DNA of 64,000 nt from Oceanobacter kriegii DSM 6294 (GTDB taxonomy: Bacteria; Pseudomonadota; Gammaproteobacteria; Pseudomonadales; Oceanobacteraceae): NCBI RefSeq assembly GCF_000422845.1, contig NZ_KE383932.1:186070-250069 (forward strand), in the 5' to 3' direction. Positions 30,701 to 42,665 of the stretch are shown one piece after another. A model generated the notes under the pieces. That model did no database searches. It saw only the letters and a program-made list of their open reading frames with translations, and had not been told where the DNA came from. The translations under genes and the position numbers were made by a program. The first letter of the stretch is position 1, and every line of letters starts with the position of its first letter.

Positions 30701-31753
30701 ATGAGTGATGATTTCGATACCCGCGGCGAGAGCCTGAAAGAACGCATGCAGGACCGCTGGAGAGAATCCGGTGCCATCCGTAACGGCATTGTGATTGTGG
30801 TGTTGCTGTACATTCTGATCACCCTGGCGCTGGGCTTCTTCTGGAGCAGCGAGCCAGACGCCTTTGCGATTCGGGAAAACACCGCCGTCAAAGCTGAGAC
30901 CATGGGCGTTGACCCGGTGACCGGTTTCACCACTGTATCCACCCTGATCACGGTAGCCGATACCATGCTGCACAAACCGGGTGGTTATTTGAGTAACGAC
31001 ATGACACCGCCGGGTATTTGGCTGGATAACATTCCCAACTGGGAATACGGTGTGCTGACTCAGGTACGCGATTTTACCGAAGCCTTGCGCCGTGACTTCA
31101 GTCGTTCGCAAAGCCAGTCGACCGAAGATGAAGACCTGATCACCGCCGAGAACAGCTTCAAGATTGACCACTCCCGTTGGGCGCTGCCGTCATCAGAATC
31201 TGAATACCAGACTGGTATCGACAAGCTAAACCGCTATATCACCCGTTTGTCCGATCGCAATGTGCCAGACGCCCAGTTCTACTCCCGTGCGGATAACCTG
31301 CAACGTTGGCTGCAAAATGTAGAAACCCGTTTGGGCAGCTTGTCCCAGCGCTTGAGTGCTTCGGTTGGCAAGCCACGCTTGAATACGGATTTGTCGGGTG
31401 ACCCGGATGCCCGTCAGTCGACTCCGAACGACGCCGATCGTGAGGTGAAAACCCCGTGGACCGAGATCGACGACGTGTTCTTTGAAGCCCGTGGCAGTGC
31501 CTGGGCGCTGGCGCATCTGCTGCGCGCCATTGAAGTGGATTTCCGCGATGTGCTGGAGAAGAAAAACGCGCTGGTCAGCCTGCGCCAGATCATTCGTGAG
31601 CTGGATTCCACTCAGGAAACCGTCTGGTCTCCGGTGATTCTGAATGGCAGTGGCTTTGGCCTGTTCGCCAACCACTCGCTGGTGATGGCGTCCTATATCT
31701 CTCGCGCCAATGCCGCCATTGCGGATTTGCGGATGCTGCTGTCACAGGGCTAA
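30701..31753 (+). CDS. DUF2333 family membrane-anchored protein
   Basis: A 350-residue protein with one membrane segment (about residues 27-47) near the N-terminus and a large, mostly helical periplasmic part; segments such as SDRNVPDAQFYSRADNLQ and FFEARGSAWALAHLLRAIEVDF are typical of the DUF2333 family. Function is not established. The ATG at 30701 follows AAAAGGA by 7 bp. A terminator follows immediately, so it is a single-gene transcript. Confidence 0.82.
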   Translation: MSDDFDTRGESLKERMQDRWRESGAIRNGIVIVVLLYILITLALGFFWSSEPDAFAIRENTAVKAETMGVDPVTGFTTVSTLITVADTMLHKPGGYLSNDMTPPGIWLDNIPNWEYGVLTQVRDFTEALRRDFSRSQSQSTEDEDLITAENSFKIDHSRWALPSSESEYQTGIDKLNRYITRLSDRNVPDAQFYSRADNLQRWLQNVETRLGSLSQRLSASVGKPRLNTDLSGDPDARQSTPNDADREVKTPWTEIDDVFFEARGSAWALAHLLRAIEVDFRDVLEKKNALVSLRQIIRELDSTQETVWSPVILNGSGFGLFANHSLVMASYISRANAAIADLRMLLSQG

Positions 31754-31776
31754 CCCTGCTTCTAAAGAATCGCTTG

Positions 31777-31804
31777 AAATAACTCGCCGCCCGGCGGGTT
31801 ATTT
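31777..31804 (+). terminator. rho-independent terminator after the DUF2333 gene
   Basis: AAATAACTCGCCG pairs with CGGCGGGTTATTT (one G-T pair) and the T-rich tail continues to TTTGTTTG. It isolates the DUF2333 gene from the TonB cluster. Confidence 0.85.
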
Positions 31805-32109
31805 GTTTGTGGCCCTCGGTTTTTTCCTGCTTCTTGACCGCTTTTCCATGGCCTGTTCACGGCCTGCTCTCCGTTTCTTCTCTGCACCTTCCCGGACTCT
31901 ATTCCTTCCTGAGTGCTTTTTGATCAGCTGGTCAATTTGTCAAAGCACTGACATCAAGACCGTGTTCGGCTGTCACTTTTCTGTCATTTAAAAGCAATTT
32001 TCATGTCACATATCCGCAACATACTCCGCCCCCAAGATATAAAGAGTCCATGTTCGGTCAGCCACCGTCAGGGACTGTTGTAAAACCTATATTCCTTTCA
32101 GGGGGCTCA
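31805..32109 (+). promoter_or_regulatory. leader and promoter region of the TonB-receptor gene, with a Pho box
   Basis: Between the terminator and the receptor ATG lie 305 bp. The outstanding feature is CTGTCAC-TTTT-CTGTCAT at 31970-31987, which fits the PhoB box pattern of two 7-mers separated by 4 bp. A weaker similar block, CATGTCAC, follows at 32002-32009. The ribosome site is TCAGGGGG just before the ATG at 32110. A convincing -10 was not found. No gene seen in this stretch. Confidence 0.7.
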
Positions 32110-35085
32110 ATGAAACCGACACGGGTAATGCTAACTGCAGCGTCGACGCTTCTCGTTTCACAGGTGATGGCCGGTGAAGCTGTTTTCTATATCACCGAAG
32201 ACGGCATGTCCATGCGTGACGTGGCAGTCAGTGTTGACGGCCAAAAGCAGTTGATCGGTAACACCGGTTTCGTTTCTTTCGATATCGATGCAGGCAACCA
32301 CAGCGTTGAACTGTCCAAGTACGGCGAGTGGCTGGGCGAGTTCCAGTTCAGCACCGAAAACGGCGAACAGAACGCTGAAATCCAGGTAGATGTACTGGGC
32401 GGCGAAGCACTGGAAGACGTCGTGGTTTACACCCCGGGTCAGGAAGAAGCGCCAGCACTGGGCCAGATTTCCGGCTACCTGAACTCTGAAGAAACCGGCG
32501 GTGCGGTTGCGGGTGCCAGCGTATCGATCGCCGGTACTGACATGGCCGTGGTGACCGACGAAGAAGGTTTCTTCTCGTTTGAACTGCCACGTGGTGAATA
32601 CGAAGTTGCTATCGCTCACCCGAACTACGGCCAGCGCGAAGTCGACGGCGTTCGCGTCATGGGTAACGTCAACACCGGCGTTAACCTGACACTGGGTATG
32701 TCCGGTAATGGCGTGATCGAAGAAGTAGTTGCTGTAGGTTCCTACATCCCATCGACCGCCACTGCACAAGAGCGTGATTCTTCTGCGGTACTGGATGCCA
32801 TCGGCTCCGAGCAAATGGCCCGCTTTGGCGACTCCAGTGCTGCGTCTGCGCTGAAGCGCGTTGCCGGTGTTTCTGTTGCTGGTGGGCAGTTTGCGATCAT
32901 TCGTGGTATGGCTGGTCGATACATTTCCTCCACCTTGAACGGTAGCTTGATGCCATCGACCGACCCTATGCGTCGCGATGTTCCTCTCGACTTGTTCCCC
33001 GCGTCTGTTTTGGGCGGTATTGATATTCAGAAAAGCTTCACTCCTGACCTGCCGGGTGACTCCACTGGCGGTGCGATTCGCATGTCGACCAAGGGAATGC
33101 CAGAGTTCACTGGTGGTAAGGCAAGCGTCAAACTGGGTATGAATTCCCGCACTACGTTCAGTGACGTAAATAGCTATGAAGGCGGCTCAACCGACTGGAT
33201 GGGTGTTGACGATGGCACTCGTGAAGAGCCTTCTTTCGCCAATAGCTTCACTGATGGGGGCTACGACGTTCCTACCTTTATTACTGGTGCTGAGCGTGTT
33301 GAATTAACCCAGTCTTTTGATCACAACTACGGTGTGCAGCAGGTTGAGGCAAAACCCGCCCGAGGTTTCAGTGTTTCCTACGGCAAACTGATGGAAGGCG
33401 ACGAAAGCACTCATGGCATGTACTCCGCTTTCAGTTATAGCGACAAGTGGACTGCACGTCACAATGCTGAAATTAATGACACCAGTGAAGAAGGTACCTA
33501 TGAGCGTACCAAGCGTAACATCGATCTTGCGGGATACTTTTATTACGGCATCGAGGACGCTAACAACCTTTGGCAAAGCAAGACCATTTTGCTTCGCAAA
33601 ACAGATAACACGACGAAAACCAGCAACACCCGTGACGAAGGCAAGGATCAGGAGCTGAATCAGACTCTGTTGCAGTGGGTAGAGCGTCAATATCTTGGCC
33701 AGCAGTTCTCCGGTACTCACTACTTTGGAGACGATACTCTCGAATGGCGTGCAGGGATTGCACAAACATCCCGTTATGAGCCTGATCGCCGTACCTACAC
33801 GTATGGTCGTGCTTTGGGTACGTCAAATGACTTTGCTTTCCAGGGAACCGTTGAGCGTCGTTATTCCGACCTGACTGAAAACACCTACGATATTGGTGCG
33901 GATTACACGTCGGAATACCTGTTCGATACCTGGGCCTGGAAGAATAAGTTTGGCTTCAGCTATACCACTAAAAACCGTGAAGTTGAGCTGGCTCGATATG
34001 CGAACCGTGCTGTGACTTCCAGTTCGGTCGATACGACAGCGTCACTGGATGAAATTTTCTCTGACACCAATGTTGATAACGGCACTGTAACCTTCACTGG
34101 TACCACAACAGCGACTGATAGCTATGACGCTGACGAAGAAGTTGTTGCTGTTCACGGCTCCAGCGAGCTGGATATGGATTCGGTATCTGTTCTGGCTGGA
34201 CTGCGTTACGAGAGCATTACTCAGGAGCTTGACTACCCGAACAAGGCTGACTCCCAAAATACCCTGGAAGAAAGCTATGTGTTGCCTGCTTTGTCGGCCA
34301 ACTGGCGTGTCACCGAAGACTCACAGCTGCGAGCCAGTATTACCCAGACGGTTTCTCGTCCAGGTATTACCGAGCGCTCAGAGTCCGTTCAATATGATCC
34401 GGACACAGATAAGCCTCTGACTGGTAATGCTGATCTGGAAATTTCCAAAATCAACAACCTCGATTTGCGCGGCGAATACTACTTCTCTGAAGAAGAAAGT
34501 GTGACCGTTGCCTTGTTCTACAAGGATGTTGATAAGCCAATCGAACGCCAGGTTCTCGATGCCGATGGCAGCGCAGCCGAAGGTTACACCTACGACAACG
34601 TGAACAGCGCAGAGCTTAAAGGTCTGGAGGCTGACTTCCGATTGAATGTCCTGGATACAGACAGATTGTCTGGCTTCGTATCCGGTAACTTCGCCTGGGT
34701 TGATTCTGAAGTCGATTTGACCGGCACCAACGCAGAGCGTCTGGAGGGAGCTTCCAGCCGAGCCCTGCAGGGACAGTCTGAATTTCTGGGCAACCTGCAA
34801 CTTGGTCTTGATGACTATGAATCAGGACAGTCTCTGACACTGCTTGTGAACTACTTTGACGAACGTATCTATGCAACAAGCCGTGGTGACCTGGGGCCTG
34901 TGATGGAAGACGGTCGCACAACCTTTGATCTTGTCTATAGCTACGACTTCAGTGACGACCTGAAGATCAAGGCGAAAGCATCAAACATTACCGATGAGCC
35001 CGTAACTTACTCCCGTGATGGACGTACGTTAGAGAGCTACTACGTAGGCACCGATTTCGACGCATCCGTCGAGTATCAATTCTGA
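32110..35085 (+). CDS. TonB-dependent outer-membrane receptor with N-terminal carboxypeptidase-regulatory-like domains
   Basis: A 991-residue outer-membrane active transporter. The signal peptide ends near residue 21 (QVMA/GEA). Residues about 22-100 form an Ig-like domain and 118-197 a CarboxypepD_reg-like beta-sandwich (GAVAGASVSIAGTDMAVVTDEEGFFSFELPRGEYEV). A TonB-box-like EEVVAVG lies at 204-210, and a second similar stretch, EDVVVY, at 102-107. Then comes the plug (SSAASALKRVAGVSVAGGQFAIIRGMAGRY) and a barrel ending in Phe. The ATG at 32110 has GGGGG in front; an upstream ATG is rejected because it adds residues before the signal peptide. A hairpin separates it from the beta-helix gene. 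Substrate unknown. Confidence 0.92.
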   Translation: MKPTRVMLTAASTLLVSQVMAGEAVFYITEDGMSMRDVAVSVDGQKQLIGNTGFVSFDIDAGNHSVELSKYGEWLGEFQFSTENGEQNAEIQVDVLGGEALEDVVVYTPGQEEAPALGQISGYLNSEETGGAVAGASVSIAGTDMAVVTDEEGFFSFELPRGEYEVAIAHPNYGQREVDGVRVMGNVNTGVNLTLGMSGNGVIEEVVAVGSYIPSTATAQERDSSAVLDAIGSEQMARFGDSSAASALKRVAGVSVAGGQFAIIRGMAGRYISSTLNGSLMPSTDPMRRDVPLDLFPASVLGGIDIQKSFTPDLPGDSTGGAIRMSTKGMPEFTGGKASVKLGMNSRTTFSDVNSYEGGSTDWMGVDDGTREEPSFANSFTDGGYDVPTFITGAERVELTQSFDHNYGVQQVEAKPARGFSVSYGKLMEGDESTHGMYSAFSYSDKWTARHNAEINDTSEEGTYERTKRNIDLAGYFYYGIEDANNLWQSKTILLRKTDNTTKTSNTRDEGKDQELNQTLLQWVERQYLGQQFSGTHYFGDDTLEWRAGIAQTSRYEPDRRTYTYGRALGTSNDFAFQGTVERRYSDLTENTYDIGADYTSEYLFDTWAWKNKFGFSYTTKNREVELARYANRAVTSSSVDTTASLDEIFSDTNVDNGTVTFTGTTTATDSYDADEEVVAVHGSSELDMDSVSVLAGLRYESITQELDYPNKADSQNTLEESYVLPALSANWRVTEDSQLRASITQTVSRPGITERSESVQYDPDTDKPLTGNADLEISKINNLDLRGEYYFSEEESVTVALFYKDVDKPIERQVLDADGSAAEGYTYDNVNSAELKGLEADFRLNVLDTDRLSGFVSGNFAWVDSEVDLTGTNAERLEGASSRALQGQSEFLGNLQLGLDDYESGQSLTLLVNYFDERIYATSRGDLGPVMEDGRTTFDLVYSYDFSDDLKIKAKASNITDEPVTYSRDGRTLESYYVGTDFDASVEYQF

Positions 35086-35106
35086 TTTTTGTAATTGTTC
35101 TGCAAT

Positions 35107-35134
35107 GAAAGTGCACGACACTCAGTGCACTTTC
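35107..35134 (+). terminator. hairpin between receptor and beta-helix lipoprotein genes
   Basis: GAAAGTGCAC pairs perfectly with GTGCACTTTC around 8 bases, 22 bp after the receptor stop. No long T-run follows, so it may act as an attenuator or mRNA 3' stabiliser between genes rather than a full terminator. Confidence 0.5.
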
Positions 35135-35168
35135 TTACTAAGCAACACTCTGTGATGAGGAACTAAAG

Positions 35169-36626
35169 ATGGAACTGAAGAAGAGCTATTTGGCAGTAGC
35201 GATTGCCGCTGCAACTCTGGTTGGTTGCGGTAGCGACAGCAGCGATAGCAACGACAACGATAGCAACAACAACGAGACAGGCACTTACAGCTTCCTGTCT
35301 TGTGAAACCGAATCCCAGTGTGTGATCACTGGCACCATCGACGAAGATTTCACTATGTCTTCTGACGTTCAGTACGTTCTGGACGGTCTGGTTAAAGTTG
35401 GTTACGGCAACATCGCTTTCACTTCTGATTCCGACGTGACTACAGCCAAGAACAACGGCGTAACCCTGACCATCGAACCAGGCACTGACGTACGTGGCGC
35501 TGATGACGGTGTTCTGATCGTTACTCGTGGTTCCAAGCTGATGGCTGAAGGTACTGCTGAAGCTCCTATCACTTTCTCCTCTCTGTCTGATGAAGATTTC
35601 GATGGCCTGGGTGAGTGGGGCGGTGTGATCCTGCAAGGTCTGGCTACCCAGTACGGTGCTGGTAACACTGGCGCTTGTTACGGCGACGGTTCTATTTGTA
35701 ACGTTCAGGGCGAAGGCGGTGACGGTGTAGGTTTCTACGGCGGTAACGAAGACGGCGATAACAGCGGTGTACTGAAGTACGTTCGTATTGCTGAAGCCGG
35801 TAAGGTCGCTGGTCCTAACAACGAAGTTAACGGCCTGACCCTGATGGGTGTTGGTCATGGCACCACCATCGACTACATTCAGGTTCACAACAACCTGGAC
35901 GACGGTATTGAGTGGTTCGGTGGTACTGTAAACGTTACTCACGCTGTACTGACTGGTAACGACGACGACGATATCGACTTTGATACTGGCTACAAGGGCA
36001 ACATCCAGTACGCACTGGTTGTTAAGAATGCTGATCTGACTGCCCCATCCGGTTCTAACGATCCTCGTGGCATCGAAGCAAACTCTTCTGATGATGAATA
36101 CGTTCCTCAAACGGAAGGTGCTTTGGCCAACATCACTCTGGTTGGTGCTGCTGTGACCGAAGGTCAGTACGGTATGCGTCTGCGTGGTTCCCTGACTACC
36201 CGTATTTACAACACTGCAGTTGTGAACTGGGAATCCTGTATCCGTGTAGACGACTCCGACACCGACGGTGATGACACTGTTGATTCTTACAGTAATGTAA
36301 CTCTGGTTAACATTGTTGGTGACTGTGCTCCAGACGGCATGTACACCAAGCGTGACGCCGATGTTGCTACTAACGTTGTGGAAGCAGACATCGATCTGGA
36401 TGCTGCTGCTGCACTGACCTCTGCCAATGGCGAGCTGACCGAAGCTCCAGCCATGACCGCGGTTGACAACGGTTCTGGGTTCGCATTCGACGCTACTTCT
36501 TATGTCGGTGCTGTTGCTCCGGGTACTGCCGCTGCTGACGCATGGTGGGCTGGTTGGGTAATCGAAGGTTCTCTGGATAACGTTGCTAACCAGGACGATC
36601 CAGCGACTACTTTCGCTGCCGAATAA
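35169..36626 (+). CDS. beta-helix surface lipoprotein partnered with the TonB receptor
   Basis: A 485-residue predicted lipoprotein: signal peptide with lipobox LVGC (Cys20), then a Ser/Asp/Asn linker (to about residue 37). The mature domain shows right-handed beta-helix character with repeated short strands and Asp-rich turns, for example LTIEPGTDVRG, DDGIEWFGGTVNVTHAVLTGN and DDDDIDFDTGYKGNIQYALV. Exposed acidic loops could bind metal ions or a ligand. Codon use is strongly biased to GGT, GCT, GTT and CGT, as in highly expressed genes. It sits directly after the receptor gene, an arrangement that recalls SusC/SusD pairs; its function is inferred only from that. Confidence 0.75.
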   Translation: MELKKSYLAVAIAAATLVGCGSDSSDSNDNDSNNNETGTYSFLSCETESQCVITGTIDEDFTMSSDVQYVLDGLVKVGYGNIAFTSDSDVTTAKNNGVTLTIEPGTDVRGADDGVLIVTRGSKLMAEGTAEAPITFSSLSDEDFDGLGEWGGVILQGLATQYGAGNTGACYGDGSICNVQGEGGDGVGFYGGNEDGDNSGVLKYVRIAEAGKVAGPNNEVNGLTLMGVGHGTTIDYIQVHNNLDDGIEWFGGTVNVTHAVLTGNDDDDIDFDTGYKGNIQYALVVKNADLTAPSGSNDPRGIEANSSDDEYVPQTEGALANITLVGAAVTEGQYGMRLRGSLTTRIYNTAVVNWESCIRVDDSDTDGDDTVDSYSNVTLVNIVGDCAPDGMYTKRDADVATNVVEADIDLDAAAALTSANGELTEAPAMTAVDNGSGFAFDATSYVGAVAPGTAAADAWWAGWVIEGSLDNVANQDDPATTFAAE

Positions 36627-36646
36627 TCTTACCTCGGTAAGACAAC

Positions 36647-36674
36647 AAAAACGGCGCCTTCGGGCGCCGTTTTT
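36647..36674 (+). terminator. rho-independent terminator after the beta-helix gene
   Basis: AAAAACGGCGCC and GGCGCCGTTTTT form a perfect 12 bp stem with a TTCG tetraloop, followed by CGTTTC. It ends the receptor/lipoprotein unit. Confidence 0.92.
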
Positions 36675-36753
36675 CGTTTCTGGAATAGTGAATTTTCAAT
36701 TAAAACAACTGAGATCCTTTCTCATTTTAGAAGAGTTGGTATGATCCGTTACC

Positions 36754-36787
36754 CTGTAACAAAGCTGTCACGCAACTGAAGTAATGT
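36754..36787 (+). promoter_or_regulatory. Pho box and -10 of the TonB energy operon
   Basis: CTGTAAC-AAAG-CTGTCAC (36754-36771) is two 7-mers 4 bp apart, close to the PhoB consensus. A -10-like TAATGT lies at 36782-36787, ten bases after the second repeat, the spacing seen at PhoB-activated promoters where the box replaces the -35. The leader up to 36854 includes the hairpin GCCCG/CGGGC at 36808-36828. Confidence 0.7.
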
Positions 36788-36854
36788 GCCAGCTCGAATT
36801 TGAGGGGCCCGAACCATCTTACACGGGCAAATTGGAGTCTAACGGGTAATACAT

Positions 36855-37613
36855 ATGCTACTGCGAACTCGAAACCTGCTGGCTGCCGCCATCCTTGGCG
36901 CATGCGCTATCTCTGGCGCAAATGCAGCGGACGTAAATACGGCAATTGACAAGGGTGTCAGCCGCGTAAACAACGCGCAGGCGTCTCAGCAGAAGATTGA
37001 TTCTATCGACAACAGCATCCGTGCCACCGAGCGTGAATACCGTGGCGTTGTGAAAGAAGTAGACGGTCTGAATGTGTACATCGAGCAGCTGGACAAGCAG
37101 TTGGCGGCTCAGGATGAAGAGCTGTCTTCCATTGCTGACAGTATTGAAAAAGTAACGCTGGTAGAGCGTCAGATCACCCCGTTGATGCTGAAGATGATCG
37201 ACTCCATTGACCAGTTCGTTAAAGCCGACGTGCCGTTCCTGAAAGACGAGCGTAGCGAGCGTGTCGATGCCCTGAAAGACCTGATGGGTCGTTCTGATGT
37301 AACGGTTGCCGAGAAGTACCGCAAGGTGATGGAAGCCTACCAGGCCGAGATTGATTACGGTCGTACCATTGAATCCTACCGTGGCAACCTCGACGGTCGT
37401 GAAGTCGACTTCCTGCGCGTCGGTCGCATATCCCTGATGTACCAGACACTGGACGGCAACGAGCTGGGTGTATGGAACCAGGCTACCGGCCAATTTGAGG
37501 CAATGGACCCAACCATGAAGAGCAAGCTGAACGCCGGCTTGCGTATTGCCCGTGAGCAGGCAGCTCCGGATCTGATCAAAGCGCCCGTTGCAGCACCACA
37601 GGAGGCCAAGTAA
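36855..37613 (+). CDS. DUF3450 periplasmic coiled-coil protein
   Basis: A 252-residue exported protein: signal peptide cleaved near residue 24 (SGANA/AD), then a long coiled coil (about 35-110, rich in Glu, Lys, Gln) and a small globular C-terminal domain with GRISLMYQTLDG and WNQATGQFE. DUF3450 proteins occur as the first gene of TonB2-type operons in Vibrio, Shewanella and relatives. Here it heads the six-gene run and its stop overlaps the ATG of the next gene (TAATG). It probably contacts the TtpC-like protein, which has a similar coiled coil, but this is inference. Confidence 0.87.
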   Translation: MLLRTRNLLAAAILGACAISGANAADVNTAIDKGVSRVNNAQASQQKIDSIDNSIRATEREYRGVVKEVDGLNVYIEQLDKQLAAQDEELSSIADSIEKVTLVERQITPLMLKMIDSIDQFVKADVPFLKDERSERVDALKDLMGRSDVTVAEKYRKVMEAYQAEIDYGRTIESYRGNLDGREVDFLRVGRISLMYQTLDGNELGVWNQATGQFEAMDPTMKSKLNAGLRIAREQAAPDLIKAPVAAPQEAK

Positions 37614-38983
37614 TGAAATTGAAGGCTATTGTATTGTCGGCCGCCCTGGCGTTTGGTTTTAACACTGCAAACGCTGCTGACACGGTTTCTGTTGATGATC
37701 TGCTGGGTCTGGTAAAGCAGGGTCAGGCACGTGATAACAAGGAATTCCAACAGCGTCTGAAGCGTTTCAACTCTGACAAGGCGCAACAGGAAAAAATGCT
37801 GGCTGACACCCGTCAGGAGCGTGACAACCTGGTTGCCGAAAGTGAGCGTAAGGAAGCCCTGTTCGCTGAGAACGAAACCAAAATCGCTGAAGAACAACAG
37901 CGTCTGACCGAGCGCATGGGCTCTCTGAAAGAGCTGTTCGGTGTGCTGCAGCAAGTGGCGGGCGACACCAAGTCCGTGTTTGAAGGCTCCGTGGTCAGCT
38001 CTGAGCTGCCAGGCCGTGAGCAGTTCCTGACCGACCTGATCATCACCGCCGGTTCTTCTTCCAAACTGCCATCCATCGACCAGCTGGAACAGCTGTGGTT
38101 TGAAATGCAGCGTGAAGCAACCTACACCGGTCGCGTATCCAGCTACCAGACTGACGTGGTTGTACCATCCGGTGAAACCGTTCAGAAAGACGTTGTCCGT
38201 GTGGGTGGTTTCAACGCCATTTCCGATGGCAAATACCTGAACTGGGATCTGGAATCCGGTCGTCTGGTTGAACTGGATAAACAGCCAGGTAGTCGTTACA
38301 CCGATCCGGCCAAAGCTCTGGAAGTGGCGTCTGGCGACCAGCTGACTGAGTTCTGGATTGACCCTTCCCGTGGCCAGCTGCTGAAGATCATGGGTCAGTC
38401 CCCTGAACTGCAGGAGCGTGTTGATCAGGGCGGTATCGTTGGTTACATCATCATGGCGTTGGGCCTGGTGGGTATCCTGACTGCATTGTGGCGCATGCTG
38501 GTGCTGTGGCTGGAAGGTATGAAGATCCGCAAGCAAATGAAGTCTGATACGCCAAACGAAAACAACGCACTGGGTCGTGTGATGGCGGTCTTCCAGGCCA
38601 ACAAGGATGCCGACATCGAGACTCTGGAACTGCATTTGGGTGAAGCGATTTCTGCCGAAATCCCACGTCTGACCCGCGCCATTGGCTGGATCAAGATCAT
38701 CTCTGTTGTGGCTCCGCTGCTGGGTCTGCTGGGTACCGTAACCGGTATGATCGACGTGTTCGAAACCATGTCCCTGTTTGGTACCGGCGATCCGAAACTG
38801 ATGGCAGGTGGTATTTCCCAGGCTCTGATGACGACCGTTCAAGGTCTGGTGGCAGCAATTCCTTGTGTGTTCCTGCATACCCTGACCAACAACCGCAGTC
38901 GCGAGCTGATGATGATTCTGGAAGAACGCGCTACCGGTATTCTGGCTCGCCAGAGTGAACAGTCCCACGGTAAAGCGGCGTGA
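37613..38983 (+). CDS. ttpC: TtpC-like MotA/TolQ/ExbB protein with periplasmic coiled coil
   Basis: A 456-residue protein: signal peptide (to about residue 21), periplasmic coiled coil (about 45-110), globular part, then a TolQ/ExbB membrane core from about residue 275 with three segments (GGIVGYIIMALGLVGILTALWRM, IISVVAPLLGLLGTVTGMIDVF and a third after GGISQALMTTVQG). This is the architecture of TtpC, required for TonB2 function in Vibrio. It is larger than normal ExbB and would add to, not replace, the ExbB that follows. It overlaps the next start codon by 4 bp. Confidence 0.88.
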   Translation: MKLKAIVLSAALAFGFNTANAADTVSVDDLLGLVKQGQARDNKEFQQRLKRFNSDKAQQEKMLADTRQERDNLVAESERKEALFAENETKIAEEQQRLTERMGSLKELFGVLQQVAGDTKSVFEGSVVSSELPGREQFLTDLIITAGSSSKLPSIDQLEQLWFEMQREATYTGRVSSYQTDVVVPSGETVQKDVVRVGGFNAISDGKYLNWDLESGRLVELDKQPGSRYTDPAKALEVASGDQLTEFWIDPSRGQLLKIMGQSPELQERVDQGGIVGYIIMALGLVGILTALWRMLVLWLEGMKIRKQMKSDTPNENNALGRVMAVFQANKDADIETLELHLGEAISAEIPRLTRAIGWIKIISVVAPLLGLLGTVTGMIDVFETMSLFGTGDPKLMAGGISQALMTTVQGLVAAIPCVFLHTLTNNRSRELMMILEERATGILARQSEQSHGKAA

Positions 38984-39513
38984 TCGTCATGTTGTTTACT
39001 GAACTCTACGAACCTGTCTACCTGTTCATGGAGCGAGGAGGCATGGTCCTCTTCAGCATCCTGTTCCTGGTACTGTTTCTGTGGGGGTTCGTTCTGGAAC
39101 GTGTTTTCTACTTTATGTTTGTACACCGCGCGTCCGTAAAGGCCGCGGTGGCCGAGTGGGAAGCACGCAGTGAGCGTCGCTCCTGGGCCGCTCATCAGAT
39201 CCGTCAGGATCTGTTGAGCCGGCTGTCCTTTGAACTGACTTCCAATATGAGCACCATCAAAATGCTGATCGGTCTGGCGCCTCTGTTTGGCTTGCTGGGT
39301 ACCGTTACCGGCATGATCGAAGTGTTTGATGTGATGGCGTTTCTGGGCAGTGGTAGCCCAAAAGCGATGGCATCCGGTATTTCCAAGGCAACCATTCCGA
39401 CCATGGCCGGTATGGTGGCTGCGATCACCGGTGTGTTTGCTCAGTCGCTGCTTGATCGTTACATCAAGCGGGAAAAAATTCGAATCGAAGACCAGCTGAC
39501 CTTCGATCACTGA
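38980..39513 (+). CDS. exbB: ExbB2-type TonB energiser
   Basis: A 177-residue inner-membrane proton-channel protein with three transmembrane segments (MVLFSILFLVLFLWGFVLERVF, MLIGLAPLFGLLGTVTGMIEVF and ATIPTMAGMVAAITGVFAQ). With ExbD it uses the proton gradient to drive TonB. The GLLGTVTGM motif is typical. A GTG at 38980 overlaps the ttpC stop (GTGA), with an in-frame ATG at 38989 as alternative start. Confidence 0.92.
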   Translation: MIVMLFTELYEPVYLFMERGGMVLFSILFLVLFLWGFVLERVFYFMFVHRASVKAAVAEWEARSERRSWAAHQIRQDLLSRLSFELTSNMSTIKMLIGLAPLFGLLGTVTGMIEVFDVMAFLGSGSPKAMASGISKATIPTMAGMVAAITGVFAQSLLDRYIKREKIRIEDQLTFDH

Positions 39514-39529
39514 TAAAGAGAAGATTGCT

Positions 39530-39940
39530 ATGAGACGCGGTTTTTCAAATTTGACCCCACAAGCCGAGGAAGGCGAAATCGACATCACTCCGATGCTGGA
39601 CGTGGTGTTCATCATGCTGATCTTCTTCATTGTGACCGCCTCTTTTGTGAAAGAGACCGGTATTGAAGTAAATCGTCCAGACGCCAGCACGGCCAGTGCC
39701 AAGCCACGCGCCAACATCCTGATCGCCATTAACGACATGGGCGAAATCTGGATCGACAAGCGTAAGGTGGATGAAAGTCAGGTACGTGCCAACATCGAGA
39801 GGATGCACGCCGAAAACCCTCAGGGTACGGTGGTGATTCAGGCCGATCAGGAAGCCAAGACCCGTACTCTGGTGGCGGTGATGGACGCAGCACGTGCGGC
39901 AGGTGTGTACGACGTATCCCTGTCAACACAGGAGCAATAA
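39530..39940 (+). CDS. exbD: ExbD2-type TonB energiser
   Basis: A 136-residue protein with a single N-terminal membrane segment containing the essential Asp in DITPMLDVVFIMLIFFIVTAS (Asp24), and a periplasmic domain with INDMGEIWIDKRKVD. It forms the proton-driven motor with ExbB. It starts 16 bp after exbB behind an AGAGAAGA-type ribosome site and ends 1 bp before the tonB ATG. Confidence 0.94.
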   Translation: MRRGFSNLTPQAEEGEIDITPMLDVVFIMLIFFIVTASFVKETGIEVNRPDASTASAKPRANILIAINDMGEIWIDKRKVDESQVRANIERMHAENPQGTVVIQADQEAKTRTLVAVMDAARAAGVYDVSLSTQEQ

Positions 39941-39941
39941 T

Positions 39942-40559
39942 ATGATCGCAGCCTTGCTACGCTACTGTGCAGCACTGGTTGTCGGCTCGGGCGTGACCTT
40001 TGGGGTGTTCTGGGTCATGCAGGGCCTGATCAGTAGTGGCGGCTCTGTTATGAACGAACAGAGCACCGAACGACTCGAAAGCTTTGTGATGCAAAAGCCG
40101 GACGATGAAGTTCAGACCAAGGAACGCAAGCCGCAAAAACCGCCGGTTGCTCCAAAAGAGCCACCCAAGCCTGAAATGCCGAAGCCACAAGTGGCCAAGG
40201 CGTCTACCGATGGCTTTGACGTTGGCGGCTTTGACATCAGTGCCGACCTCAATGTTGACGCTGGCCTGTCTGGCGGTGGTGGTGACGGTGAATACCTGCC
40301 GATTGTGAAGGTAGCGCCTAACTATCCTCGTCGTGCCGCCCAGCGCGGTATTGAAGGCTACGTGGTGGTGGAATTCACTGTGAATGCACTGGGTGCGGTG
40401 GTGAATCCGGTGGTGATTGAAGCGGCTCCGCCGAATATCTTCGATCGCGAGGCACTGGCCGCCGTGAAGAAGTTCAAGTACAAGCCAAAAACCGTTAACG
40501 GCAAAGGCGTCGAAGTACCGGGTGTGCGTAACATCATCCGTTTCGAGCTTGAGAAATAA
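39942..40559 (+). CDS. tonB: TonB2-type energy transducer
   Basis: A 205-residue TonB: N-terminal membrane anchor (about 8-30), a proline/lysine-rich spanning segment (KPQKPPVAPKEPPKPEMPKPQ, about residues 64-85) and a C-terminal domain with PNYPRRAAQRGIEGYVVVEFTV, the motif that docks to TonB boxes. The ATG at 39942 has CAGGAG 9 bp upstream. The short proline region is typical of TonB2 proteins, which reach their receptors with help from TtpC. Confidence 0.93.
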   Translation: MIAALLRYCAALVVGSGVTFGVFWVMQGLISSGGSVMNEQSTERLESFVMQKPDDEVQTKERKPQKPPVAPKEPPKPEMPKPQVAKASTDGFDVGGFDISADLNVDAGLSGGGGDGEYLPIVKVAPNYPRRAAQRGIEGYVVVEFTVNALGAVVNPVVIEAAPPNIFDREALAAVKKFKYKPKTVNGKGVEVPGVRNIIRFELEK

Positions 40560-40573
40560 CACCAGGAGTTAAC

Positions 40574-41872
40574 ATGAAAAAACCATTGGCCCTGTTGGGT
40601 GCCGGATTGGTGGCGCTTTCGTTGTCCTATGTGGGACCTGGTGTGATGTCGGTACAGGCCGCTGAGCAGTCCGGTTCGTCCGCTGCCAGCAACAAGCGTG
40701 TTCGTCGTTCTGCCACCATGCGCCCGCAAATCTTCAAGAAGCTGGACGGCGCTCGTGAGCTGGCCGACCAGAAACAATACGCGGAAGCACTGGAAGAGTT
40801 GCAGGATCTGGAGAAGCGTCGCCGCAACTCCTACGAAACGGCAATGACCCACAATATGTACGCCTATGTGTACTTCAATCAGGAAAAGTACAAGGAGGCT
40901 GCTGCAGCCTACGAGAATGTGATCGCGGTCGAGAACATTCCTGAAAGCCTTGAGCAAACCACCTTGTACAGCCTGGCCAAGCTGTATCTGATTCAGGAAC
41001 AGTACAAGCAGGCGTTGGTGCCACTGAACAAGTGGTTTGGCATTGTTGCCGAGCCGGGCGCTGAAGCCTATGTGCTGCGCGCGCAGGTGTACTTCCAGAT
41101 TGAGCAGTACAACAAGGCACTGCCAGACATCAAGCAGGCCATTGCCATGGTCAAGAAGCAGGGCAACCTGCCGCGTGAAAACTGGTTGATGCTGGAACGT
41201 GCGGTGTACTACCAGAACAAGGACTTCGACAATCTGGCCCGTTGCCTGCAAGACCTGGCAACCCTGTATCCGAAGTCCCAGTACTGGGTTCAGCTGGCGG
41301 CGGTGTATGCCGAGCTGGGGCAGCCAAAGCGTGAGCTTTCAACACTGGAAACCGCGTTTGAACAGAACATGCTGACCAAGGAAAGTGAACTGATCAACTA
41401 CGCTCAGGCGTTGTTGGGGCAGGACATCCCTTATAAGGCGGCAGCCATCATCGAAGACGGCGTTAAAGCAGGCATCATCAAGGAAGATGCCCGCACCATG
41501 TCGCTGCTGGGTGATTCCTGGATGCTGGCGAAGGAATACGACAAGGCCATTGTCGCGATGACAGAGGCTGCCAAGCTGTCTGGTAAAGGCAGTGATTTCT
41601 TCAAGCTGGCGCAGATTCACACCGAACGTCAGGAGTGGAAACTGGCACTGCAAAACGTCAAGCAGGCGATTGCCAAAGGTGGTTTGCAGCAAGAGTCATC
41701 CGCGCTGATTCTGCAAGGTTTGATCGAGTTCAATCTGGACGAGCTGAAGGATGCCAAAGCGTCTTTTGCCAAAGCGGCGAAGTTCGACGAAGCAACCAAA
41801 ACAGCGGGCCAGTGGCTCGAATACATCAAGAGTGAAGAAAAGCGTCGCGAGTACATGGCGGCGTCTTCCTGA
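40574..41872 (+). CDS. TPR-repeat protein of the TonB2 operon
   Basis: A 432-residue exported protein with a signal-like N-terminus (cleavage near residue 30, VQA/AEQ) and about nine TPR-like repeats, such as QYAEALEELQDLEKR, EKYKEAAAAYENVIAV and DEATKTAGQWLEYI. The last gene of the operon in Vibrio and Shewanella TonB2 clusters is the same kind of TPR protein. It is likely periplasmic and part of the complex; its exact task is unknown. It starts 14 bp after tonB. Confidence 0.85.
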   Translation: MKKPLALLGAGLVALSLSYVGPGVMSVQAAEQSGSSAASNKRVRRSATMRPQIFKKLDGARELADQKQYAEALEELQDLEKRRRNSYETAMTHNMYAYVYFNQEKYKEAAAAYENVIAVENIPESLEQTTLYSLAKLYLIQEQYKQALVPLNKWFGIVAEPGAEAYVLRAQVYFQIEQYNKALPDIKQAIAMVKKQGNLPRENWLMLERAVYYQNKDFDNLARCLQDLATLYPKSQYWVQLAAVYAELGQPKRELSTLETAFEQNMLTKESELINYAQALLGQDIPYKAAAIIEDGVKAGIIKEDARTMSLLGDSWMLAKEYDKAIVAMTEAAKLSGKGSDFFKLAQIHTERQEWKLALQNVKQAIAKGGLQQESSALILQGLIEFNLDELKDAKASFAKAAKFDEATKTAGQWLEYIKSEEKRREYMAASS

Positions 41873-41924
41873 TCGGCTTCGGCCGTCAGTCCTGATGTCA
41901 TTATTTTTAAGGAATAATGAGCAT

Positions 41925-41948
41925 AAATGGCCGCTTTTGCGGCCATTT
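41925..41948. terminator. bidirectional terminator after the TonB2 operon
   Basis: AAATGGCCGC pairs with GCGGCCATTT around TTTT. It lies between the convergent TPR gene and the small membrane protein gene, with A/T-runs on both sides. Confidence 0.85.
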
Positions 41949-42017
41949 TGCGTTCCGGGTTTTGCTTTTCGGGTTTTCGCTTACTGCTCTCGATCAGGCT
42001 TCCTGCTCTGATCAAAT

Positions 42018-42665
42018 TTACTGGCCTTGATCAAATAGACCGAGCGCCTCGTCGATGGCCGTCATAATGGCATCGGCATCCACCAATACCCGTCCGGGTT
42101 TGAAAATCATCAGCAGATGCTGGCTTTGTTCAATCACCATGTCCGGGTGGCGTTGTAGCCACTCATAAACGGCTTGTTGTGCGCGCAGTTCAAACGCGTG
42201 GGGCTTTTGCGCCATCACCAGAGTGTTGGGCAACCCGGATATGGCGACGGTTTGCAGGTTGTTCTGATCCGGGTCGGTAAAGCTGTCGCTTTGCAAATTG
42301 CGGTGGTAACGCTGGGGCTGGACCCGAAAATCGCCGGATTCCTGATTTACCTTGTCCATCACAATGACGGTTTGCTCCGCCAGTCCGGACACGCCAACGT
42401 AGGCATAATCCATCACCTTGAAATGAACGCCATCGCGTTGTCCCAGCAGTTGATGGCGGGTATGGCGAAACTGGGAGTGGTGGGTGATGGAAAATCCGGC
42501 TTCCAGAACGTCCTTGTCGAGGGCGCCAAACTGCCGGTATTCAGCATCGAGTTGCTGCGCCAGCGCCCGGCGGACACGGCCGGTATGGCTGCCGGTGTGT
42601 TTGAAAACCAGAAACAGACAGCCGCCTAGCGCGGCGACAATTAACAGGGCGATCAGGTAAATCAT
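42018..42665 (-). CDS. small membrane-anchored protein of unknown function
   Basis: A 215-residue protein with an N-terminal hydrophobic segment (about residues 2-20) and a cytoplasmic or periplasmic soluble domain. No family was recognised. It has a stretch of strand-forming residues (GVHFKVMDYAYVGVSGLAEQTVIVMDK). It converges on the TonB2 operon and is 66 bp from the divergent HIBCH-like gene. Coding is supported by length and codon use. Confidence 0.6.
   Translation of the reverse strand: MIYLIALLIVAALGGCLFLVFKHTGSHTGRVRRALAQQLDAEYRQFGALDKDVLEAGFSITHHSQFRHTRHQLLGQRDGVHFKVMDYAYVGVSGLAEQTVIVMDKVNQESGDFRVQPQRYHRNLQSDSFTDPDQNNLQTVAISGLPNTLVMAQKPHAFELRAQQAVYEWLQRHPDMVIEQSQHLLMIFKPGRVLVDADAIMTAIDEALGLFDQGQ

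Follow-up and report, generated by a model that had tools for sequence, protein, structure and literature searches.

A predicted Pho-controlled outer-membrane import locus of Oceanobacter kriegii, with its own TonB2 motor and a receptor–lipoprotein pair apparently exchanged as a block

Eight genes within a 64,000-nucleotide stretch of the Oceanobacter kriegii DSM 6294 genome (hereafter the window) probably encode a phosphate-starvation outer-membrane import system, in which, as the likeliest function, a lipoprotein captures a phosphorus-containing ligand and TonB drives its uptake. A broader proposal, to which we give slightly less than an even chance, is that these lipoproteins, shared by several phyla, are phospho-ligand receptors of a new class, built on a beta-helix with a metal-dependent acid site, and, jointly, that in these marine bacteria receptor plug/barrel and lipoprotein are an interchangeable cartridge, while the Pho-controlled promoter, the receptor N-terminus and the motor stay fixed. 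New here are seven near-invariant acids in the lipoproteins and the block replacement of receptor plug/barrel and lipoprotein.

All genes of the complete energised path put forward in the original prediction were found at the claimed position and strand (32110-41872, all on the plus strand). The TonB-dependent receptor (32110-35085; 991 aa; PF00593, PF07715 and CarboxypepD_reg) consists of a CarboxypepD_reg-like N-terminal domain, plug and barrel, in that order, and scored under the family cut-off of TIGR01782. It is followed by an ElpS/FI/FII-like beta-helix lipoprotein (35169-36626; 485 aa; lipobox ...LVGC), ttpB (36855-37613; DUF3450, E 4e-80), ttpC (37613-38983), exbB2 (38980-39513), exbD2 (39530-39940), tonB2 (39942-40559; PF03544) and the TPR-protein gene ttpD (40574-41872). 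The names ttpB and ttpD follow the available text of PMC6957404. TtpC has a MotA/TolQ/ExbB domain (MotA_ExbB) and a DUF3450-like N-terminus, the DUF3450 match being sub-threshold (26.6 of 32.6 bits). The eight genes are present in a row as predicted, but judged from sequence the row is two transcription units, divided by a terminator-like hairpin at 36647-36674 (strand unassigned; the scan put it on the minus strand, and the stem is nearly symmetric). Unit 1 comprises receptor and lipoprotein and unit 2 the six-gene TonB2 cassette. The cluster has no inner-membrane transporter gene, also as predicted. The window locus itself contains no T2SS genes; GspD was found elsewhere in the genome. A search of 31500-42200 against Rfam at gathering thresholds gave no match, and a riboswitch was rejected on that basis.

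Each transcription unit is preceded by its own Pho box. Pho box 1 (31970-31987, plus strand; CTGTCAC-N4-CTGTCAT), 5' of the receptor, has no mismatches to CTGTCAY-N4-CTGTCAY, and Pho box 2 (36754-36771, plus strand; CTGTAAC-N4-CTGTCAC), 5' of the TonB2 cassette, has one. They are the top two among 24 matches in the window, a total that is at chance level (shuffles 18.1 ± 4.2). Genome-wide, there are three perfect matches to the relaxed Pho pattern, two of which are these boxes. The pattern also occurs elsewhere in the genome at a Na/Pi cotransporter (no mismatches) and, with one mismatch each, at a pstS-like gene (judged by eye, directly before pst genes) and at a TonB-dependent receptor followed by a phytase-domain lipoprotein; PstA-, PhoR- and PhoB-like genes were found as well. 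Pho control of both units, claimed earlier for the cluster, holds as a sequence prediction.

Related loci were scored with weights hand-set from a consensus and a box threshold of ≥21. In the window's own family a Pho box lies 5' of the receptor at 13/14 loci and 5' of ttpB at 12/13, counts that include the nearly identical L061 and L062. Over 119 loci, three duplicates among them, boxes precede 23/31 ttpB, 44/118 lipoprotein and 25/105 receptor genes, so that at this score a box is missing 5' of over half of the lipoprotein genes and of the receptor genes; the background is 0/46 for the internal gene ttpC and 1.9% for random segments. Where the lipoprotein comes first in the pair, the box is at the first gene in 26/52 cases and at the second in 2/52, against 8/470 for control genes; receptor-first pairs have a box also 5' of the second gene in 12/42. 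Pho boxes 5' of ttpB and of the pair's first gene are thus far above background in related loci, and the co-occurrence that had been proposed as a check is frequent among homologues.

Control by iron was rejected, as neither unit has an upstream Fur-like site (the best match has 9 of 19 mismatches). Import of iron, another metal or a cofactor, with phosphate starvation merely co-inducing the genes, draws on the Vibrio vulnificus TonB2 cassette, which has a Fur site and serves siderophore uptake (available part of PMC6957404). Given the poor Fur-like match, the lack of any Rfam match at gathering thresholds in the region and the phosphate and T2SS genes, the classes counted, beside a minority of related loci, we consider it very unlikely.

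Two or more core Pho/Pst families occur at 19/116 related loci versus 3/80 control regions (p 0.004), and any P gene nearby at 26/116 versus 5/80. Controls were raised to 80 because the enrichment against the first 40 regions was weak (26/116 vs 4/40). No controls came from the genomes in which the 79 named loci lie, so for these the controls are unmatched; the control genomes G447, G468 and G496 are outside the 116-locus genomes. The PstS reference for this search was a relative's PstS. GspD and GspE are both present at 18/116 loci. The linkage check proposed earlier was run for phosphate and T2SS genes: homologues are linked to pst/phoU/phoBR or T2SS genes in a minority of loci. No single enzyme that would name the ligand recurred beside the pair in related loci.

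An AlphaFold2 model (mean pLDDT 85.6) lends support to the predicted beta-helix of the lipoprotein. A known domain was rejected after sequence searches of Pfam (no match at E≤0.1), NCBIfam (none near a cut-off) and the PDB (no meaningful match), and a close fold match was rejected because Foldseek returned nothing at E≤0.001. Among the best 50 of 247 Foldseek neighbours, all weak (best E 2.5e-3), most are known as beta-helix proteins; a GH87 glucanase and polygalacturonases are included, and pectate lyases and alginate epimerases resemble the lipoprotein weakly in fold. This similarity would suit SusCD-style uptake of phosphate-free glycans, induced under phosphate stress for carbon, but the lipoprotein has no SusD domain and no carbohydrate enzyme is among the identified neighbour clusters (10 representatives against Pfam; 650 neighbours in total), making this reading highly improbable.

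The mature lipoprotein is acidic, as had been claimed (77 D/E vs 17 K/R), and its gene has the lowest effective codon number of 40 window genes compared. Conserved acids are E182, D197, E219, D244, D245, E248, D266, D267, D270 and E303; conserved basic residues are few (R120, H240 and R339). Seven acidic positions are 99-100% conserved in 162 lipoprotein domains, a set that leaves out the duplicates L062, L108 and L112, L090 and L095-L098 with odd N-termini, and segments of <240 positions or with a stop. Loci L101-L179 were retrieved via the peptide pattern DDG[IVF]E[WFH]FG, which contains D244, D245 and E248, so in these loci part of the conservation of the three residues follows from the search itself; D266, D267, D270 and E303 lie outside the pattern. 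The motifs D244/D245/E248 and D266/D267/D270 are about 22 residues apart, roughly one turn of a beta-helix. Relatives of the lipoprotein number at least 569 in one scan, span several phyla and include records from SAR86, SAR92 and Alteromonas. Of these at least 569, the best 79 make up the named loci, which are therefore no random sample, and many of the loci end at contig borders.

Conserved acids with few basic residues may reflect catalysis or structure instead of phosphate capture. The lipoprotein could be a surface enzyme or enzyme activator (a phosphohydrolase or phosphorylated-glycan hydrolase) whose product the receptor imports; acids near-invariant across phyla are more typical of an active site than of a variable binding site, and the GH87 glucanase and polygalacturonases among the fold neighbours point the same way. 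According to the accessible portion of PMC2996285, overexpression of the Caulobacter crescentus lipoprotein ElpS raised phosphatase activity in the supernatant, but neither the refolded nor the immunoprecipitated protein showed such activity. Since a metal site accounts for the acids equally well and no fold match reached E≤0.001, we regard the enzyme explanation as unlikely, though less so than import of iron or glycans. In the text available, the pentapeptide-repeat protein of PMC12864828 is unrelated to the lipoprotein question, and PMC2536512 has nothing bearing on the lipoprotein system.

Receptor and lipoprotein behave as a pair. The receptor is on the same strand within 3 kb of the lipoprotein at 94/116 loci, and with the motor's distances removed, receptor and lipoprotein distances correlate at 0.84 (21 rows; 0/2000 permutations as high). 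The lipoprotein co-varies with the receptor and occupies the SusD-like place assigned to it earlier, in place only and not in homology. DNA homology to the sister locus L071 is lost across an approximate block at 32911-36647 (plus strand) that runs from around codon 267 of the receptor to slightly beyond the stop codon of the lipoprotein gene. Within the block, 174 bp of the lipoprotein gene still match as an island; homology is regained at the hairpin. Comparable breaks separate L061/L070, L065/L073 and L069/L075. Receptor plug/barrel and lipoprotein appear to have been swapped as one block, with promoter, receptor N-terminus and motor retained. In the open-licence literature we found no report of a receptor and lipoprotein exchanged as a single block.

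In the window's family, L070-L073 and L075 were assigned to type B because they differ strongly from the pair in the window (receptor 37-45% identical, lipoprotein 38-41%). For rows from other families the default was type A; one of them, L077, sits by type B on the barrel tree. L075 is a third type (barrel 31-41% and lipoprotein 39-49% identical to six compared rows), and its lipoprotein is not permuted. On the motor tree there are four type changes, or five if the third type is counted, and types alternate between close species; the four sister pairs tested for this were picked after inspecting the tree with type alternation. At E≤1e-30 the receptor has a single match over its full length in each matching family genome, the others being partial or ≤41% identical; paralogy as the origin of types A and B was therefore rejected, and we read them as alternatives at one place. 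They may have arisen via ancient duplication with loss. The replaced block, consisting of barrel and lipoprotein, and the alternation between close species would also fit evasion of phages or bacteriocins targeting the surface pair, rather than a change of ligand. Both types keep the acid motif, which counts against this explanation; we consider it quite possible, if short of probable, and it is compatible with the import model.

Under that import model, PhoB would bind both predicted Pho boxes at low phosphate, switching on both units. Unit 1 would supply the receptor and the beta-helix lipoprotein and unit 2 a dedicated six-gene TonB2 motor. The lipid-anchored lipoprotein, probably on the cell surface, would capture the phosphorus-containing ligand, its acids probably holding divalent cations as a bridge to phosphate groups, and would pass it to the receptor barrel, taken as its partner because of their joint replacement and co-variation. 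TonB2 would drive import by touching the receptor N-terminal part, the part that remains with the local motor through a replacement of barrel and lipoprotein. Uptake could then be completed by periplasmic phosphatases and the Pst or Na/Pi transporter.

Iron, B12 and glycans are well-known cargoes of energised outer-membrane transport, whereas in the open-licence literature surveyed such transport of phosphorus compounds is inferred from expression studies. A Pho-controlled system with a dedicated motor offers a clean genetic handle, and natural exchange provides ready-made chimaeras to map ligand-sensing versus TonB-sensing parts. The lipoprotein family is large and reaches the marine records named above, and may therefore bear on organic phosphorus acquisition by marine bacteria.

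The original prediction that the combination has no named function does not stand for its parts: the pair resembles two described arrangements, and the motor is a named cassette. This kind of system is partly known, because relatives show the arrangements of ElpS/Cc0171 and of Flavobacterium FII with its TBDT. ElpS (CC0170) is a surface-exposed lipoprotein made on phosphate starvation; counting against the import model, Cc0171 is reported as constitutive, and phosphatase activity did not change when elpS was deleted (PMC2996285, available part). As in the window, a lipobox lipoprotein adjoins a TonB-dependent receptor; T2SS genes adjoin that pair, whereas the window has a TonB2 cassette instead. 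Homologues of the window lipoprotein are in the published order lipoprotein-TBDR-gsp at 3/5 fetched loci (L247, L250 and L251) in relatives of a Phenylobacterium genome, and for the family of the Phenylobacterium record G395 a match at E≤1e-5 occurs in 48/119 genomes. The putative homology to ElpS is drawn from these syntenic relatives, not from the CC0170 sequence.

In Flavobacterium johnsoniae, Pi depletion induces FII together with its TBDT, the phoBR operon includes FII, and the low-Pi TBDTs with the hypothetical lipoproteins FI and FII, of polygalacturonase-like modelled fold, are PUSIII and PUSIV (PMC8115612, in the text available). By description these resemble the window's beta-helix (pectate-lyase-like) lipoprotein and TBDT, and a Flavobacteriia relative (L172/L252) has its TBDR-lipoprotein pair beside phoB/phoR-like genes. 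The FI/FII system belongs to another phylum, and a TonB2 cassette was not seen there in that text. The motor matches the V. vulnificus operon ttpB2-ttpC2-exbB2-exbD2-tonB2-ttpD2 in content and order (accessible text of PMC6957404), in line with the predicted own TonB2 motor. Unlike that operon, the window locus has a Pho box and an adjoining receptor–lipoprotein pair, and no Fur-like site upstream of either unit; a Fur site characterises the V. vulnificus operon but does not define the cassette. A requirement for TtpB and TtpD in transport is among the traits expected of a Vibrio-type cassette. SusCD/PusCD systems likewise join a TBDT to a lipoprotein partner and work similarly, but the window lipoprotein has no SusD-family domain (Pfam, E≤0.1) and is a beta-helix instead. 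We found no report in the open-licence literature uniting a lipoprotein–receptor pair with a TonB2 motor under Pho control; the feature that marks the window locus as a variant of these systems is its dedicated motor, predicted to be Pho-controlled.

All eight genes of the row described in the original prediction are found on the plus strand, with the receptor at 32110-35085, the lipoprotein at 35169-36626 and ttpB-ttpC-exbB-exbD-tonB-ttpD at 36855-41872. The receptor and lipoprotein genes form one unit and the six TonB2 genes another, with a terminator-like hairpin at 36647-36674 between them. Between receptor and lipoprotein (35086-35168), an inverted repeat was seen by eye, GAAAGTGCAC...GTGCACTTTC; judged from the sequence, it could permit different expression levels of the two genes. 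The effective number of codons of the lipoprotein gene is 32.9, the lowest among the 40 window genes compared, which suggests that it is highly expressed.

Across related loci, the receptor barrel and the lipoprotein appear to change together, apart from the TonB2 motor. We refer to the window-like barrel and lipoprotein as type A and to those of loci L070-L073 as type B. Within one genus, L061 and L070 share 89-99% identity in the five motor proteins and 88% in TtpD, versus 45% in the receptor and 39% in the lipoprotein. Values for L065 and L073, also from one genus, are 89-97% (motor), 83% (TtpD), 43% (receptor) and 40% (lipoprotein). L070 and L073 come from different genera and are 73% identical in the receptor and 74% in the lipoprotein. 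In the three pairs tested, receptor residues 20-260 track the motor (84-88% identity), and from residue 305 onward identity is down to 30%. DNA homology is lost within the receptor, at about codon 267 to 313, and regained about 20 to 130 bp past the lipoprotein stop in all four pairs examined (window/L071, L061/L070, L065/L073 and L069/L075), three of which have a short homologous island inside the lipoprotein. The two comparisons between loci of one type, window/L061 and L070/L073, show homology unbroken through the block.

Within the family, type B (L070-L073) requires one change on the barrel tree, versus four each on the motor and receptor N-terminus trees. When L075 is scored as type B, the motor and N-terminus trees each require five; L075 is 83% identical to L069 in the motor, only 31% in the barrel and 39% in the lipoprotein, and is better treated as a third type. 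The lipoprotein tree requires two changes of type, with weak support. The motor data reject a single type B clade, whether L075 is included (p = 2.8e-70) or left out (p = 8.9e-5), and the barrel data reject every one of the four sister pairs. With the motor's contribution removed, the correlation between receptor and lipoprotein distances is 0.84. Most simply, the exchanges would be explained by recombination inside the conserved plug on one side and close to the intergenic hairpin on the other. The same distribution might also go back to an old polymorphism, or to a duplication followed by loss.

No domain match was found for the lipoprotein. Its predicted structure is confident and contains a beta-helix, with only weak fold neighbours. 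Across 162 domains, D244, D245, E248, D266, D267, D270 and E303 (window numbering) are conserved at 99-100%, E182 and D197 at 98-99% and E219 at 92%; basic positions at ≥70% are R120, H240, R339 and the column of T257 in the window. Because the two D-rich motifs are spaced by 22 residues, about one helix turn, we infer that they stack on the beta-helix. In the single-unit lipoproteins of L070-L073 and L093, a YxGAV...W motif is N-terminal rather than C-terminal to the helix core, and tandem lipoproteins occur in both orders (motif first in L082 and L084, core first in L074 and L086). Such forms would fit an origin of the permuted order by duplication, the usual route to circular permutation. 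In L074, L080, L082, L084, L086, L088, L089 and L099 the lipoprotein is of double length, at about 940-1010 aa, and seems to consist of two beta-helix units.

The pattern CTGTCAY-N4-CTGTCAY, allowing up to three mismatches, has 24 matches in the window, a chance-level total (shuffles 18.1 ± 4.2). The sole perfect match (31970) and the sole one-mismatch match (36754) each lie directly upstream of one unit. In the whole genome (36 contigs, 4.5 Mb), a relaxed pattern has three perfect matches, namely both window boxes and one ahead of a Na/Pi cotransporter (PF02690), and 14 further matches with one mismatch. One of the latter precedes a pstS-like gene, identified by eye and followed by pst genes. 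The reversed control pattern still yields 8 matches versus 17, so the one-mismatch set includes chance matches. Pfam confirms PstA-, PhoR- and PhoB-like proteins in this genome. Another of the 14 one-mismatch matches lies upstream of a second TonB-dependent receptor followed by a lipoprotein-like phytase-domain protein (PF02333; G000:C1, about 507,600-512,500; L180:7669-12488). Another TonB2-type cassette (L181:6667-14304) adjoins and diverges from a different TonB-dependent receptor, and its DUF3450 protein is more distant.

We scored 119 related loci (40 plus the best 79 of at least 569 relatives, three duplicates counted) using a hand-weighted Pho matrix with a cut-off of 21. Boxes were found upstream of ttpB in 23/31, the lipoprotein in 44/118 and the receptor in 25/105, versus 0/46 for the internal gene ttpC and 1.9% of random segments. 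Without duplicates, lipoprotein-first pairs have a box at the first gene in 26/52 and at the second in 2/52; for receptor-first pairs the counts are 20/41 and 12/42, and for control genes 8/470. Of 116 loci, 94 have a same-strand receptor within 3 kb of the lipoprotein, and 43 have two or more of the three motor genes sought (ttpC, exbD, tonB) close to it. Compared with 80 control regions, the 116 loci more often contain any phosphate gene of the set (26 versus 5; Fisher p = 0.0015), at least two core Pho/Pst families (19 versus 3; p = 0.004) and GspD together with GspE (18 versus 0; p = 4e-5). In Alteromonas, Glaciecola and Salinimonas records (L166, L146, L153), phoB-phoR-like genes lie upstream on the same strand, followed by lipoprotein(s), receptor and TonB2. 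A strong Pho-like box was observed between T2SS genes and receptor in a Phenylobacterium genome (L251:12567).

Several known systems resemble parts of this one. According to PMC2996285, ElpS is a surface lipoprotein made on phosphate starvation whose gene adjoins receptor Cc0171 and T2SS genes; homologues of the two co-occur in genomes, and ElpS itself was without phosphatase activity in those authors' tests. The order lipoprotein-TBDR-gsp also occurs in 3/5 loci fetched from the family of G395, a genome reached via a Phenylobacterium record, and 48/119 genomes of that family have relatives of the window lipoprotein. The Caulobacter PhoB regulon includes TonB receptors and T2SS (PMC11208175), Flavobacterium FI and FII are low-Pi lipoproteins clustered with TBDTs (PMC8115612), and the TonB2 system is named in PMC6957404. 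No joint account of an ElpS/FI/FII-type pair, TonB2 and Pho control was found in the open-licence literature searched. The original observation is confirmed, and its interpretation is largely upheld. The proposal of an undescribed system holds only in part: the components are known, and what is new is how they are put together and that barrel and lipoprotein are replaced jointly.
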